A stretch of DNA of 64,000 nt from NCBI RefSeq assembly GCF_013402815.2, contig NZ_CP058601.1, positions 186,001 through 250,000 of the forward strand, given 5' to 3'. This DNA is from Natrinema halophilum (GTDB taxonomy: Archaea > Halobacteriota > Halobacteria > Halobacteriales > Natrialbaceae). Position numbers and translations under genes: made by a program. The notes below the pieces were generated by a model that was given only the letters and a program-made list of their open reading frames with translations, did not search any database and was not told where the DNA came from. This document shows positions 52,007-60,124 of the stretch, piece after piece; position 1 is the first letter of the stretch; every line of letters begins with the position of its first letter.

Positions 52007-52378
52007 ATGAGCTGTTACGAAATCGAAGCATTGCGACTCGGACTGATGAATGTCCTCGATGTCGGGGACGAGAGTGCCCGCAACCACGCGGCGAACGAAC
52101 TCGAGGGCCATCGAGATGGCCCTATCGAAGGCCTCGCGGAGGCCGACACCCTCACGGAGATCCAGCGGCATCTCGATGCGGCGCTGGTCGATCTCGAAGA
52201 GGTGGTCGCAACGATGGATCGCGACGACCCCGAGTTCGATTATACCCGGGGTCGACTGCTGGCGGTTCGTGACGCCGAACGAGCGGTCCAGCGACTGAGC
52301 GCTCAGGGAGAGAGTATCGTCGACGGCCTCGGCGATGCGCACGATACCCTCCACGAGACGTTCCCGGTCGAAGAATAA
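52007..52378 (+). CDS. DUF3209 family protein
   Basis: A 123-residue helical protein (MSCYEIEALRLGLMNVLDVG start, then LVDLEEVVATMDRDDPEFDY, then GRLLAVRDAERAVQRLSAQG). DUF3209 is a short family that occurs beside cbiX in haloarchaeal cobalamin clusters; its function is not established. It follows cbiX after 79 nt and is separated from the next gene by only 2 nt, so it is probably in the same operon. One N-terminal Cys is the only obvious candidate ligand. Confidence 0.8.
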   Translation: MSCYEIEALRLGLMNVLDVGDESARNHAANELEGHRDGPIEGLAEADTLTEIQRHLDAALVDLEEVVATMDRDDPEFDYTRGRLLAVRDAERAVQRLSAQGESIVDGLGDAHDTLHETFPVEE

Positions 52379-52380
52379 CG

Positions 52381-53676
52381 ATGAGTGAGAGCGCACCTAA
52401 AAACGATCGCGCCGAATTCCGATCGGTATCGCTCGGAAAGATCGAACCTGCCCGTAGCCGGCATATGTGGACCCGATCCGCGGTCCACCTACCCGAGACC
52501 GAAGCCCTCGTCGTTACCGGCGAGTGGGATGGAACCGTCACCGGCCGCGACGCCGACACGCTCGAATCGCGCTGGACGGCCGATCATCCGGGCCACGCCG
52601 TTGGGATCGCATCGCTCGAGGCCAGCGGGTCCGGGATGGATAGCGACGAGCAGGATGGGAGAGCCGAAACGATCGTCGTCGGCGGGCGGGGCAAAACGGG
52701 GACGATCGCCGCCTACGACGCCGAATCGGGCGATCGGCGCTGGCGATACGACACCGCTGACGACGTCGGCGAAGCGGTCAAAGACACCGTTTTCTACCGC
52801 CCCTACGTCGTCGCCCTCGAGACTGATAGAACCGGATTGTACGCCGCGGCTCGGCGCTACGAACGTGACGGCGAGGCCCGTCGGTGGTATAGCACGGTCT
52901 ACGCGTTCGATCCCGACGGGACAGTTCGGTGGACGTACGAAACCGACGCCTCGCCGATTGCACTCGACCTTGACGCCGACGGCGACCGTTTGGCGGTCGG
53001 TTATAATCGGTGTATGGGCGACCACGATACCGGACTCGTCGTCCTCGAGACCGATTCCGGTGACCTCGCGTGGACCTGGGACCCCGGAACCGAGGGCGAC
53101 CGCCGCGTCGGCGACGTTTCCATCGACGGGGAATCGATCGCCGTCTCGAGTCACGGCGATAAGCGTGGCTATCTATTGGGTTCCGGTGGTGCCGAGCGCT
53201 GGAGCGTCGACCTCGCTGTCGAAACCGAAATCGACGGTGAGACGCTGTATGCCTATCCGAATCACGTCTTCGCTCATAACGGCCGGATCGCGTTCGTGAC
53301 AGGCAACACCTACGCACAAGCGGGACGCGAGACCGGCAATCGGCATCCGAACGAACACCGGATCGCCGCGTTCGACGCCGACGGCGACCTCGTCTGGGCC
53401 GACGACGTTCGCGGCTTCGTCCACGGTCTCGCCACAGCCGGCGGGCGTCTCGTCGTCCCCTGCGCCCAGAATTTCCGAGTCCGCGATCCGACAACCCACC
53501 GTATCCGCTGGTTCGATCTCACGTCCGGTGATGGCGACAGCGAGCGCCTCGGGGGGATCGCCACGGCTGCCGCCGTCGAGGGCGGGACCGTCGCAGCCAT
53601 CGAGGAACCCGTCGAGTATCACGACGACGGCGAGTTGCGCGGCGAATACGCGCTTCGCGTCGGCTCGCTCGAATAA
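52381..53676 (+). CDS. PQQ-like beta-propeller repeat protein of the cobalamin operon
   Basis: A 431-residue beta-propeller protein with repeated strand-turn units such as DGTVTGRDADTLESRWTADH, GTIAAYDAESGDRRWRYDT and VYAFDPDGTVRWTYETDA. It resembles BamB/PQQ-repeat proteins but has no signal peptide or lipobox, so it is cytoplasmic. Its position as the last gene, 2 nt after DUF3209, ties it to the cobalamin cluster. A scaffold or sensor role is possible; the function is unknown. Confidence 0.8.
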   Translation: MSESAPKNDRAEFRSVSLGKIEPARSRHMWTRSAVHLPETEALVVTGEWDGTVTGRDADTLESRWTADHPGHAVGIASLEASGSGMDSDEQDGRAETIVVGGRGKTGTIAAYDAESGDRRWRYDTADDVGEAVKDTVFYRPYVVALETDRTGLYAAARRYERDGEARRWYSTVYAFDPDGTVRWTYETDASPIALDLDADGDRLAVGYNRCMGDHDTGLVVLETDSGDLAWTWDPGTEGDRRVGDVSIDGESIAVSSHGDKRGYLLGSGGAERWSVDLAVETEIDGETLYAYPNHVFAHNGRIAFVTGNTYAQAGRETGNRHPNEHRIAAFDADGDLVWADDVRGFVHGLATAGGRLVVPCAQNFRVRDPTTHRIRWFDLTSGDGDSERLGGIATAAAVEGGTVAAIEEPVEYHDDGELRGEYALRVGSLE

Positions 53677-53782
53677 CACGCTCGGTCGGTCGCTGCGAAA
53701 CGCAATCGACTTCGTTGTGTTGGATCGTCGCACACGCAAGGCCAACCCCCACAACGCAGAGGACCATCTGTTTTCCCGTACA

Positions 53783-54838
53783 ATGACTGAGGGTCCAGAA
53801 TACGACGGCAACGAGGTGTTCGTAAAACCCGTGGTGACCGGGTTCGCCTCGACCCGTCACGACGAGAGCGACCGGCGGGGCATCCCCTCGCGCCCTGTGA
53901 TGACAGACGGCGGGCAAGCGGAGATGGACGACGCTGACGACGGAGACTCGAGCGATGAGTCGCCAGAGGAGACGACGGAGGCGGAAGCTGAAGAGACTGA
54001 ATCTGGAGAGGGCGAAGAGGCTGAATCTGAAGAGGCCGAAGGAGAGGCGGAAGAAGCTGAATCTGAAGAGGCCGAAGAAGAGGCGGAAGAAGCTGAATCT
54101 GAAGAGGCCGAAGAAGAGGCGGAAGAAGCTGAATCTGAAGAGGTCGAAGAAGAGGCGGAAGAAGCTGAATCTGAAGAGGCCGAAGAAGAGGCGGAAGAGG
54201 CTGAAGAGGAAGAAGCCGAAGAGGAGGCGGAAGAGGCTGAAGAGGAAGAAGCCGAAGAGGACGAGTATCATGTCGAAGACGCCGACGACGTCTACCAGAG
54301 CGACGAGGCATCGGGCGTCCTTCACCTCGATCTCGACGGGTTGTTCCTCGACCTCCTCGGGCTCGAGGTCAACCTGAACTCGGTCACGCTGGACGTTTCG
54401 GCGCGACCAGGGGAGGGTAACCTTCTCGGAAATCTTCTGTCCGCCGTCGCGGGGCTGATGGACGGTACCGACGCCATGATGGATAAAGCGAAGTCCCTGC
54501 TGAGCAAGCCGGTGGAGTTTCTCAGCAACCTGATGAGCAAACCCGGTGAGTGGCTCGAGGGGCTATTCAGTGGTGATGGCGAAAGGGACGAGGAGCCAAC
54601 GGCGGATGAGGATGTGGCTGACGAAGGTGAAGACGAGTCACCCGGCCGGATCGCGTCGGCGATCGGCTGGCTCAAAAAGAAGTTGGCCAGTCTCGTCCCA
54701 AGCGTCCCCACCGAGGAGATTGTGGCGATCATCGTCAGAGAAGTGCTCGAACAGCTGGTCGAACGGCTCGAACCGGACCGAGACGAGGAATCCGGCGGAC
54801 AACCCGAATCACAGTCACAGGCGGAGGCGACTTCATGA
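53783..54838 (+). CDS. Acidic protein with Glu-rich repeats and an LLGLEV/GNLLGNLL domain
   Basis: A 351-residue protein. Residues about 55-170 are almost pure Glu/Ala/Ser. Then comes a conserved-looking core, GVLHLDLDGLFLDLLGLEVN and LDVSARPGEGNLLGNLLSAV, like the LLGL/PGxGNLLGNLL domain seen in many bacterial exported proteins of unknown function. A hydrophobic helical C-terminus follows (SKPVEFLSNLMSKPGEWLEG, SLVPSVPTEEIVAIIVREVL). No signal peptide is seen. The stop overlaps the next gene by 4 nt. The start is uncertain between 53783 and 53901. Function unknown. Confidence 0.65.
   Translation: MTEGPEYDGNEVFVKPVVTGFASTRHDESDRRGIPSRPVMTDGGQAEMDDADDGDSSDESPEETTEAEAEETESGEGEEAESEEAEGEAEEAESEEAEEEAEEAESEEAEEEAEEAESEEVEEEAEEAESEEAEEEAEEAEEEEAEEEAEEAEEEEAEEDEYHVEDADDVYQSDEASGVLHLDLDGLFLDLLGLEVNLNSVTLDVSARPGEGNLLGNLLSAVAGLMDGTDAMMDKAKSLLSKPVEFLSNLMSKPGEWLEGLFSGDGERDEEPTADEDVADEGEDESPGRIASAIGWLKKKLASLVPSVPTEEIVAIIVREVLEQLVERLEPDRDEESGGQPESQSQAEATS
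54020..54260. repeat. In-frame 36-bp repeats coding AEEAESEEAEEE
   Basis: About five near-identical 36-bp units, some shortened to 30 bp near the end, in the Glu-rich part of the 53783 gene. Slippage here would change linker length without shifting the frame. Confidence 0.8.
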
Positions 54839-55362
54839 GCGACGATTCACTGACACAGCGACTAGACACAGAAAAGATCACCGACAACGTCGACGTGAAC
54901 AATCTGGTCGAAGGCACCCAGTGGGAAGACGAGATCGACGAGGAGAAACCGCTCGGAGAGGCCCTCGGCGGACAGATCGGTGCGGTCGTCGGACGAGCGG
55001 TCGGGGAATCACTCGGTCGAACGATCGGCAACATGGTCGTCGACGAACTGCTCAGTTCCAGCGAAACAGAGCAGGGTGACGGCGAAGAATCGACAGAAGA
55101 AAGCGAAGAGAGCGTCGAGGAAGGGACCGACGAGGGCGAAGAAGGTCGAGAGGCCGAAGAGAGCGTCGAGGAAGAGACCGACGAGGGTGAAGACAATCGA
55201 GAGGACGAACCGGCGGTGGGCGAAAGCGATGACGCGGGTGCCGACGACGATGACGCGGGTGCCGACGACGATGACGCGGATGCCGAGGAAACGGCAACCG
55301 ACTCATCCGACCAATCGGATGAAGCGGAATCGGAAGCCGAAACGGAAACAGACGAGGAGTAA
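54835..55362 (+). CDS. Glycine-zipper protein with acidic tail (unit 2 of the acidic operon)
   Basis: A 175-residue protein. Residues 1-40 are polar. A glycine-zipper helix follows, GGQIGAVVGRAVGESLGRTI (residues about 43-62), with Gly every fourth position, and then VVDELL. The remaining 95 residues are Glu/Asp-rich with ADDDDAG-type repeats. The same zipper pattern occurs in the next gene. Zipper helices of this kind pack against each other or insert into membranes. No family recognised. The ATG overlaps the upstream stop. Confidence 0.6.
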   Translation: MSDDSLTQRLDTEKITDNVDVNNLVEGTQWEDEIDEEKPLGEALGGQIGAVVGRAVGESLGRTIGNMVVDELLSSSETEQGDGEESTEESEESVEEGTDEGEEGREAEESVEEETDEGEDNREDEPAVGESDDAGADDDDAGADDDDADAEETATDSSDQSDEAESEAETETDEE

Positions 55363-55415
55363 GACCGTGATACAGGGCCAGCCTATCGATCACGAATCAG
55401 TTCGAGATGATCGCG

Positions 55416-56201
55416 ATGAGTAACGGACTCGGATTGAAAGAGATCGTCGCCGAAGAGGTCAGCAAGCAGGTTGCCATCGGCGATATGCTCGGAGACGGAG
55501 CGATCGAGGACAGCGTCGACGGCAGCGAGGTTGGCGCGGCCGTCGGTCGTCAGTTCGGGGAGCGCATCGGACGCGAACTCGGTGCCTCGATTGGCCTCGA
55601 GGTTCACGAGTCGATCGCCGACGGAATCGAGGACGGAAAGAAACTCGGCGAGATCAAATCAGACCTCGCCAGGGGAGTACAGAGCACGGTCCGCGAATCG
55701 CTCGAGTCCGTCAACGAAAGCGATTCGCTCGCATCGATGGCCAGGGGCGCAAGCGAGGGGGGCAGCCTCAAGGGACTGGCAGCGGGAATTGGCGGTGACG
55801 ACGCCGAAGCGCCGGCATCGGAGACCGAGTCGCAAGCGGGGTCAGAGGCCGACGCGGAGAGCGAGAAACGGGCTGGCGAAGGCGAAGATACGGACGACGC
55901 CGAAGGTGACGAGTCGGGAAGCGAGAAAACGGACGAAAGATCCGAGAACGGAGAGACTCGGGCCGACGAGGAATCGAGCCTCGCACTCGAAAAAGCGGAC
56001 CAGTCGGTTGACGATCTCGAAGACCTGCGGAAAGAGACCCTCGAGGACTTCCTCGGCGTCATGTCCTACAACGACCTGCAGTCGATTGCCAAGGATGTCG
56101 ATGTAAAGGCAAACCTCAGTCGCGAAGAGATGACCGATCGGATAATCGAGACCGTCACGAACGACGAGACGGGCGCTGGCTCGGAGGCGGAAGCCGAGTA
56201 A
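55416..56201 (+). CDS. Glycine-zipper protein with SAP/Rho-N-like C-terminus (unit 3)
   Basis: A 261-residue protein. The zipper helix VGAAVGRQFGERIGRELGAS (about residues 37-56) parallels that of the preceding gene. An amphipathic part (GEIKSDLARGVQSTVRESLE) and a disordered acidic stretch follow. The last 50 residues, LEDLRKETLEDFLGVMSYND and LQSIAKDVDVKANLSREEMT, fold like a SAP or Rho-N helix-extended-loop-helix, which often binds nucleic acid. ATG 55416 is preferred to 55407. It starts 53 nt after unit 2. Function unknown. Confidence 0.6.
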   Translation: MSNGLGLKEIVAEEVSKQVAIGDMLGDGAIEDSVDGSEVGAAVGRQFGERIGRELGASIGLEVHESIADGIEDGKKLGEIKSDLARGVQSTVRESLESVNESDSLASMARGASEGGSLKGLAAGIGGDDAEAPASETESQAGSEADAESEKRAGEGEDTDDAEGDESGSEKTDERSENGETRADEESSLALEKADQSVDDLEDLRKETLEDFLGVMSYNDLQSIAKDVDVKANLSREEMTDRIIETVTNDETGAGSEAEAE

Positions 56202-56288
56202 GTAGTCCAATCGAATCCGCTGTCAGAGCCGCTCTGACCTGGGGTGGGGGACAGCAATGGAACCAACCGATTTCGATGCGACCGCGGG

Positions 56289-57146
56289 ATGACTGACTCT
56301 CAGATGAGCCCACACGATCAACTGCGCGATCGAATCCAGGACGTACTGCACGAGGCGGATGCCTCCAGCGGTGCGATCGTCTCGAGTACCGATTCAGACG
56401 GCGACCAGGAGACAGCCAGGACGGAGTTGCTCGAGACGGCAGAGGAAGCGAGCGATATTCTGGAGACGACGGATCCGTCTACATTGCTCGAGGCGCTCGG
56501 ACTGGATACGCTTCCGGACGGCTCTGAACCGGGCTCGATTCCCGCTGCCGTTGCTCGGGCAGAGCCGGAACGGCTCGAAGCGCTCCAGCGACTCCTCAGT
56601 CTCGCGAAACTCGCTGACCGATACGATGGAGGAACAATCGACGGTGCCGTCGATGATCTCCGGAAGACGGTCAGCGAAACGGGCGAATCGGCCGCGGAAT
56701 CCGAACCGGGCGCTGCTAACGGCGTCGAATCCGACGACGAATCGATATCCGATCGGAGCGACGCGACCGAAACCGAGCGTGGCGACGCGACCGAAACCGA
56801 GCGTGGCGACGCGACCGAAGCGACCGACGAACCCGAAGAACGACTCCGATCGGCCTTGCAATCGTCGTTTTCTGCTTTCGGCGACGAGATCCAGCAGCTG
56901 CGGGACCAACTCGAGACGGCGAGCACCGATTCAGAGTCCGACGAGAAAGCCGGTTCAGCGGAGGGCGGTTCGGAGGAGAAAACGGAAGACGCTGTCCCGA
57001 GTCCCGAACTCGAGAGTGGTCGGGACCGTGGCGTTGCATCCGCCAGGGGGTCTCACCACTCCACGATCGCACCGTCACCGTCGAAACGAGCAGATATGCG
57101 CGGGCTCGCGCGGTTTTCGACCATGCCGGACAAACGGAGGGAGTGA
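56289..57146 (+). CDS. Acidic helical protein (unit 4 of the acidic operon)
   Basis: A 285-residue protein. The N-terminal part is helical (HDQLRDRIQDVLHEADASSG, then RLEALQRLLSLAKLADRYDG). A middle linker holds three ATETERGD repeats (about 56757-56820). One further helix (DEIQQLRDQLETA) precedes a basic Ser/Arg tail. The start is ATG 56289, 87 nt after unit 3. No family recognised. It resembles accessory or scaffold proteins more than an enzyme. Confidence 0.55.
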   Translation: MTDSQMSPHDQLRDRIQDVLHEADASSGAIVSSTDSDGDQETARTELLETAEEASDILETTDPSTLLEALGLDTLPDGSEPGSIPAAVARAEPERLEALQRLLSLAKLADRYDGGTIDGAVDDLRKTVSETGESAAESEPGAANGVESDDESISDRSDATETERGDATETERGDATEATDEPEERLRSALQSSFSAFGDEIQQLRDQLETASTDSESDEKAGSAEGGSEEKTEDAVPSPELESGRDRGVASARGSHHSTIAPSPSKRADMRGLARFSTMPDKRRE

Positions 57147-58726: not shown

Positions 58727-59854
58727 TCATCTCCGCTTTGGTTTGCGTTTCTCGTCGTCGCGCCCGTTCCGTGGCTGCTGCTGGGACCGGTTCGACGACT
58801 GTTCCTCTCCAGCACTCGTTTCCCGGGACCGTTGGGTCTCTCCGCGATTGTGTTCGTTGCGACGTTGCGTCTCTCCGCGAACCCGGTCCTCGGGGCGTTC
58901 TTCCTCGGGGCTACGCACGTCCGATTGTTCTGCGGGTCCCTGCTGGCTCTGTGGGGCCTTTCGGCTCGTTCGTCCGCGTTCGCGTCGACCGCCCTCGATG
59001 CGTTGAGAATACCGTTCCGGCGGGGCCCCCTGGCCGGTTTGGGGCTGAGTTGCCCCTCCGCGTTGGGCTGACTGCTCGGCTTCCTGCTCGCGGCGCCTCT
59101 GGGTCTCGCTCGTCGCTGGACCGCCGTACTGGGTTTGCTGTGGACCCCGAGGTTGGGTGTGAGGGCTCTGCTGTTGCTCCTGTTCGAACTGCCCGCCAGG
59201 CGCCGCCGACATCGGCTCTTGCTGGGCGCCAGATGCGCCGGCCGATTCGCCGCCGTACTCGCCAGGGGTGATCCATTCGCCAGTCTCCGATCCCGTCCGT
59301 TGTCCGGTCGGCGTTCCGGTTTGCTGTCCGAGCCCCTGTGATGACGTCGCACCCCGTTCGCTCGTCGAATAGTCCGGTTGTCGGCTTCCGGACGGCTTGC
59401 GTTCCGTTCCCGGAACTCGAGTGTCCATTTGGCCGCGGCTTCCGCGTTGGGTTGGTTCCTGGTGGCTTCGTTGCCCGCTCTCCGATAGCTGACGTCCCAT
59501 TTGTTCCATCTGGCCACCCATCTGCTCCATCTGGTTCATTTGCGGCTGAGCAGCAGCTTCGAAGCCCTGTTCCATCACCTGTTCCATCTCCGGCAACATG
59601 GCTTCGACTCCCTGCACGTAGCTCTGCATCATCGACTCCGTGAGTTGCTGGCTCGGTGCGTTTTCGAGCATCGATTTCGTCATCTCGAGGCCCTGTTTCT
59701 GGGCGCTTTCCTGCCATTTGAGCGCGCTCAGTGACATTCGAACCATATCCCGCTGGAGATCGATCAGCTGTTCCATCGCCTGCTGGCCCTGGTTCATCGT
59801 CGATTCTGTCATTTGCTGCGTGTCCATGGGTTGCTGGGATTGATTCTGTCTCAT
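58727..59854 (-). CDS. Phasin-like protein with a long disordered Gln/Arg-rich tail
   Basis: A 375-residue protein. The first 120 residues are helical and Met/Gln-rich (QQAMEQLIDLQRDMVRMSLS, then LEMTKSMLENAPSQQLTESM, then MEQVMEQGFEAAAQPQMNQM), a pattern like phasins or other amphipathic surface proteins. The rest is a Gln/Arg/Gly/Ser low-complexity tail ending basic (RKPKRR), which is rare for a haloarchaeal protein. ATG 59854 is preferred over 59881. A granule- or nucleic-acid-binding role is possible. Convergent with the 58146 gene. Confidence 0.65.
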   Translation of the reverse strand: MRQNQSQQPMDTQQMTESTMNQGQQAMEQLIDLQRDMVRMSLSALKWQESAQKQGLEMTKSMLENAPSQQLTESMMQSYVQGVEAMLPEMEQVMEQGFEAAAQPQMNQMEQMGGQMEQMGRQLSESGQRSHQEPTQRGSRGQMDTRVPGTERKPSGSRQPDYSTSERGATSSQGLGQQTGTPTGQRTGSETGEWITPGEYGGESAGASGAQQEPMSAAPGGQFEQEQQQSPHTQPRGPQQTQYGGPATSETQRRREQEAEQSAQRGGATQPQTGQGAPPERYSQRIEGGRRERGRTSRKAPQSQQGPAEQSDVRSPEEERPEDRVRGETQRRNEHNRGETQRSRETSAGEEQSSNRSQQQPRNGRDDEKRKPKRR

Positions 59855-60124
59855 GAGAGTCACCTGGGGACCGTGTGTCACCGTCGTCCGATCCCCGGTT
59901 CACGATTGCGCGCGACCGAGACGCAAATAAAGGGCGACGTCAGTTCCGTACGGAAGCGCAGATACAACCGATCATAACCGACGAAGGACAGGATCGCTCG
60001 GCACACGACGTGGCCGCACGCCGTCTCGCGGATACAGACGACTAATCGTCTCGTACTTCGTCGTAATCACGGCTTGGAAGCTGAAACGGTCGTTCGAAAC
60101 GCGGCGCAGGTCTCTGCGCTGCGC

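Follow-up and report, generated by a model that had tools for sequence, protein, structure and literature searches.

In a 64-kb stretch of the Natrinema halophilum genome (the window; positions 186001–250000 of contig C1, NZ_CP058601.1, in a genome of 4.84 Mb), four same-strand open reading frames (ORFs), here called A–D, occupy positions 53783–57146 of the forward strand. Sequence comparisons indicate that A–D almost certainly form a gas-vesicle accessory operon, which in this genus lies apart from the main gvp cluster. The genes are assigned to the gas-vesicle system because of their co-occurrence with gvp genes, their neighborhood in relatives, and the homology of D to GvpI. Gas vesicles are buoyancy organelles that are used as ultrasound reporters, and their outer-surface protein, GvpC, tunes their stiffness. 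The initial annotation of the window, made from the sequence alone, had described four consecutive co-directional genes with overlap or short spacers, and the following ORFs were found in agreement with it.

53783–54838, forward strand: gene A, 351 amino acids (aa), isoelectric point (pI) 4.05; assigned to a new family, with a Glu-rich brush, a hydrophobic core, amphipathic 11-mers, and a C-terminal helix
54835–55362, forward strand: gene B, 175 aa; glycine zipper and acidic tail, 52% Asp+Glu; 4-nucleotide (nt) overlap with A
55416–56201, forward strand: gene C, 261 aa; glycine zipper, acidic linker, and SAP/Rho-N-like end; alternative start at the upstream ATG at 55407
56289–57146, forward strand: gene D, 285 aa; divergent GvpI paralogue; alternative start at GTG 56244

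No significant Pfam or NCBIfam match was obtained for A, B, C, or D, all matches being below threshold. A–D are nevertheless genes and not chance ORFs, since the order A-B-C-D, seen in the gene maps of relatives, and the core sequences persist not only in the genus and the family but also in other families.

Co-occurrence with gas-vesicle genes

We surveyed 372 genomes of the order, each at least 90% complete, and regarded those with a match to PF00741 (gvpA-type) as gvp-positive. The core of A was found in 130/372 genomes and PF00741 in 158/372, and all 130 genomes carrying A were gvp-positive (Fisher p ~6e-73, uncorrected for relatedness). A and gvp are jointly absent from three members of the window's own genus (G005, G013, and G027) and from G119, which suggests that more than shared ancestry lies behind the association. 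Of 61 genomes, comprising N. halophilum and relatives, 34 gave matches to A, 37 to C, and 34 to D; for C and D, a few matches were partial and consisted of the SAP-like tail alone or of a related GvpI. In G004 (L055 7805–10276), the gvp cluster is retained, but only a fragment of A is left and D has an altered end, and the operon is apparently decaying.

The co-occurrence search suggested in the initial annotation thus revealed co-conservation of the genes in the genus, in the family, and in other families. Its view of the four as one set of apparently non-enzymatic genes in the service of a single structure is borne out. Among annotated plasmids, one query yielded haloarchaeal matches only and a second query yielded none; a search of viral contigs gave no confirmed relative.

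Position relative to gvp clusters

The gvp cluster of N. halophilum (L082), about 610 kb from A–D, comprises gvpO, gvpN, and gvpA and, as a further group, gvpF, gvpG, gvpH, a long gvpI, gvpJ, gvpK, gvpL, and gvpM; its gvpN and gvpO were recognized by reading the translations. In the window's genus, the operon shows no linkage to gvp genes. The main lead to gas vesicles came from more distant families, in which A–D-type genes lie in or beside gas-vesicle clusters (L064, L067, and L068): Pfam matches around the L064 genes identified gvpA, gvpO, gvpF, gvpH, gvpK, and gvpL, and in L068 a GvpA-type protein (gvpJ) was found.

In the embedded form (L064, L100, L106, L110, and L127), A, a B/C-type gene, and the gene for a long GvpI lie between gvpH and gvpJ. 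The annotated genome of Halocatena salina (L100) has gvpO-gvpA and, as a second group, gvpF-G-H followed by A, B/C, long GvpI, and gvpJ-K-L, with a GvpA-type gene at the end; A (176 aa) and B/C (138 aa) are both annotated there as "hypothetical." In the adjacent form, A-B-C(-D) stands directly beside gvpO/gvpA (L103, L104, L107, L108, L109, and L139). The operon of Haladaptatus halobius (L099) is located about 11 kb from gvpO/gvpA.

Relationship of D to GvpI

The initial description of the four genes was incomplete for D alone, which had been described as a helical linker protein. Its N-terminal half is helical, but it also has a conserved basic C-terminal tail, which is located as follows.

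57054–57143, forward strand: basic STMP tail of D, which an alignment shows, in reduced form, to be common to GvpI tails

The tail carries the conserved basic motif HSTxxPxxxRADM...(F/H)STMP. The overall pI of D is 4.2 and that of its last 50 residues is 11.2, a pattern also seen in the long GvpI encoded by this genome. In profile comparisons, D matched the long GvpI of gvp clusters with an HH probability of 99.9 (E 1.5e-31), and the long GvpI matched GvpI of Halobacterium salinarum with an HH probability of 97.4 (E 1.2e-11); compared directly with the latter, D reached an HH probability of 63.5 only. As controls, A, B, C, D, and GvpI were compared with eight other Gvp profiles, and the HH probabilities were at most 10.5. 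A tree of 30 operon D proteins and 39 cluster GvpI proteins split the two groups with 100/100 support, which makes D an old GvpI paralogue and not a recent copy. D is classed as a paralogue of GvpI and not as GvpI itself. A plasmid of Halalkalicoccus jeotgali carries a solitary homologue of long GvpI (L101 8998–9783, forward strand), which is 61% identical to the G049 query and has no gvp gene within 9 kb.

The initial annotation had proposed an undescribed assembly, namely a membrane patch, a filament, a granule coat, or a nucleoid factor. Such an independent structure, unrelated to gas vesicles, would fit the unlinked position of the operon in the window's genus and the lack of any known family matching A or B/C. 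The presence of gvp in 130/130 genomes with A, the embedding in gvp operons of several families, and the homology between D and GvpI speak against it, and we consider it very improbable. Gas vesicles were not among the structures named, although "coat" came close; given the gvp co-occurrence and the neighborhood, the supposed undescribed assembly is now seen as an undescribed accessory operon of a known organelle.

Alternation with GvpC

PF05465 (GvpC) matched none of A–D and nothing in the whole genome of N. halophilum, and no gvpC lies between gvpA and gvpN in its own gvp cluster. Across the survey, multiple PF05465 repeats were found in 11 genomes, all gvp-positive, and A was present in 0/11 of these and in 130/147 of the remaining gvp-positive genomes (p ~8e-10 for the alternation, uncorrected for relatedness). 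One genome with A (G094) has a single weak GvpC-repeat match. Seventeen gvp-positive genomes carry neither A nor strong GvpC repeats. One of these (G034) encodes a GvpC-like protein, missed by PF05465, between gvpA and gvpN, and in two others (G126 and G176) the gvp cluster contains a glycine-zipper gene of the B/C type (L114 and L119). G020 has, besides a typical gvp cluster, another that encodes a GvpC-like protein.

GvpC is evidently under-detected by the current PF05465 model. At L083 (11684–12934, forward strand; just before gvpN) and L095 (15555–16577, reverse strand), GvpC-like proteins with a SAP-like end are encoded beside gvpA and give no PF05465 match.

Sequence features of A, B, and C

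The acidic, low-complexity character that the initial annotation had pointed out was also seen by us in the sequences: a Glu brush and an LLGLEV/GNLLGNLL core in A, glycine zippers in B and C, and a SAP/Rho-N-like end in C. The features of A are as follows.

53957–54259, forward strand: Glu-rich brush, residues 59–159 (101 residues), 64% Glu
54311–54466, forward strand: 52-residue core, LLGLEV...GNLLGNLL, the family signature, with 21 invariant columns in an 11-sequence alignment
54506–54571, forward strand: two 11-residue amphipathic repeats (KPVEFLSNLMS and KPGEWLEGLFS), detected by lag-11 autocorrelation
54692–54775, forward strand: C-terminal helical segment, whose conservation in relatives extends to where the tblastn match ends

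A is a new family. Its 11-residue tandem units vary in number: the window has two, and relatives have up to 4 in register. The A homologue of G094 (L123 8134–9999, reverse strand) has 621 aa and carries long SPLSALRGLASRVW-type tandem repeats after the core. A search of PDB sequences with the core of A found nothing. Motifs resembling LLGLxV...GNLLGNLL may also be present in secreted bacterial proteins. No homology of A to GvpA, GvpJ, or GvpM (PF00741) was found: A has no PF00741 match, and the HH probability was at most 0.4.

The features of B and C are as follows.

54949–55053, forward strand: glycine zipper of B, recognized in the sequence, with a weak Gly-zipper_Omp match below the cut-off
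55521–55631, forward strand: glycine-zipper helix of C, residues 36–72, a predicted helix with block means of the predicted local distance difference test (pLDDT) of 56–82
56013–56165, forward strand: SAP/Rho-N-like C-terminal domain of C, predicted to be helical, pLDDT 80–86

Profile comparison indicates that B and C are glycine-zipper paralogues (HH probability 99.8). The relative L099 gave weak sub-threshold matches to Rho_N and SAP. The SAP/Rho-N-like end is, by its distribution, a widespread haloarchaeal module: ends very similar to that of C were observed in acidic proteins (L065 9223–10170 and L066 8955–9551, both forward strand) of the gvp-less genomes G046 and G044. AlphaFold models of A and C, for which only one other sequence was added to the input, had mean pLDDT values of 41 and 60, respectively, which made them unsuitable for fold searches.

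Proposed role of A–D

The alternation with GvpC, the amphipathic repeats, the acidic stretches, and the presence of a GvpI relative point to a model in which A–C would constitute a shell-associated layer in place of GvpC, and D would be their GvpI-like partner; we give this model even confidence. In haloarchaea that lack GvpC, the layer formed by the products of A–D would stabilize the gas vesicles and give them their shape. The hydrophobic core of A and its amphipathic 11-residue helices would bind the GvpA shell, the Glu-rich brush being in the cytoplasm, and B and C would self-associate via their glycine-zipper helices. The small end domain of C may dock other Gvp proteins (homology unproven), as does the C-terminal part of GvpC, which binds GvpF, GvpH, GvpI, GvpL, GvpN, and GvpO (PMC9372576). 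D may act as a dedicated partner by analogy with GvpI, which binds GvpC and GvpH in H. salinarum (PMC9501494; also PMC7688916). On a wider reading, to which we give a probability just short of even, most gas-vesicle-bearing haloarchaea would use an unrecognized multi-protein coat, composed of A, B, C, and a second GvpI, that replaces GvpC as a second reinforcing architecture.

Several observations weigh against the shell-layer model. No sequence homology to GvpC was detectable in A, B, or C, and the structure models of A and C are weak. Only the window's genus and its near relatives show the 11-mers of A clearly. The end of C matched the ends of the GvpC-like proteins with an HH probability of 26.6 only, and SAP-like ends are also present in the gvp-less genomes G044 and G046; for these reasons, we did not accept the end of C as proof of GvpC homology. 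In addition, 17 of the gvp-positive genomes have neither A nor strong GvpC repeats, so that the coat may be dispensable.

The embedded genes, furthermore, sit with the accessory genes F–M and not beside gvpA as gvpC does. This location, inside the gvpF–M accessory operon between gvpH and gvpJ, would suit an assembly or size-control module, in which A–D act early together with GvpF–M, in nucleation, chaperoning of the hydrophobic GvpA/J/M, and growth termination, off the mature surface. Such a role would also agree with D being a GvpI paralogue, because loss of GvpI leads to overlong vesicles (PMC4390858 and PMC7688916), and acidic glycine-zipper proteins could be solubilizers. The alternation with GvpC is not predicted by it, however, as GvpC clusters keep the same F–M set. 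We regard assembly or size control as the main rival to the shell-associated layer, a real possibility but on balance a doubtful one.

SAP and Rho_N domains of other proteins bind nucleic acids. A–D might accordingly serve tethering or partition, clustering the vesicles or holding them in the cell, for instance through binding of nucleic acid by the conserved SAP/Rho-N-like end of C. The matches of this domain, however, do not reach the curated cut-offs. In L064 and L100, the embedded B/C gene terminates in another short helix, and the alternation with GvpC is left unexplained; we consider this role improbable.

Upstream element and neighboring genes

A conserved element precedes the operon.

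53727–53757, forward strand: 31-nt conserved element GTCGCAYACGCAAGGCNAAYCCCCACAACGC, candidate promoter or operator

The element lies 26–56 nt upstream of A and is nearly invariant in 12 aligned relatives, in which the flanks diverge. It occurs in one copy per genome in 23 operon-bearing genomes of the genus (degraded in G004) and is absent from G005 and G013, genus genomes without the operon.

Directly upstream of the operon, genes for a DUF3209 protein and a PQQ-type beta-propeller (52007–53676, forward strand) are neighbors in the genus and in one near genus (L061) but do not adjoin it elsewhere among the families compared. We rejected a link between the operon and the upstream CbiX, DUF3209, and beta-propeller genes, as the adjacency is limited to near relatives and not seen in other families. 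Downstream, at 58727–59881 on the reverse strand, a 384-aa protein without a Pfam match is encoded, with a phasin-like, Gln/Met-rich helical start and a low-complexity Gln/Arg/Gly tail. A coat of polyhydroxyalkanoate granules, prompted by a neighboring enoyl-CoA hydratase and the phasin-like ORF, was likewise rejected because those neighbors are not kept beside the operon.

Comparison with known gas-vesicle systems

According to a review, Natrinema pellirubrum, Natrialba magadii, Halopiger xanaduensis, and others have 11 gvp genes, gvpC and gvpDE being missing, and do not show vesicles (PMC4390858). Besides a long GvpI, the gvp clusters of Natrialba magadii and Haloterrigena turkmenica contain one further gene that H. 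salinarum lacks (PMC3403918). We found no description of an unlinked A–D operon in the literature searched, which left out most subscription papers. If most gas-vesicle-bearing haloarchaea do replace GvpC by this different and often unlinked set, the accepted list of haloarchaeal gas-vesicle genes (11–14 genes in one cluster) would be incomplete, A–D would account for parts that the GvpC-less clusters of Natrinema, Natrialba, and relatives lack, and the operon would offer new candidate shell-binding proteins.

The extra gene reported in PMC3403918 lies inside the gvp cluster, whereas A–D are unlinked to it here. With GvpA, GvpJ, and GvpM, A has in common a hydrophobic core that is short and highly conserved, and it almost certainly serves the same organelle. 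A resembles GvpC in having amphipathic tandem repeats and a comparable acidic stretch, its presence is complementary to that of GvpC, and the small end domain of C weakly resembles the ends of the GvpC-like proteins of L083 and L095. Unlike GvpC, A–D are three or four proteins rather than one, have no PF05465 repeats, and are located not between gvpA and gvpN but apart from the cluster here and elsewhere in or beside it in relatives. D shares its helical N-terminal half with the long GvpI of Natrialba-type clusters and its basic STMP tail with both this protein and GvpI of H. salinarum. It differs from them in lacking the final RIYGRRF motif, in forming its own clade, and in sitting with A–C and not between gvpH and gvpJ, a slot that in the same genome is taken by the second, long GvpI (L082).

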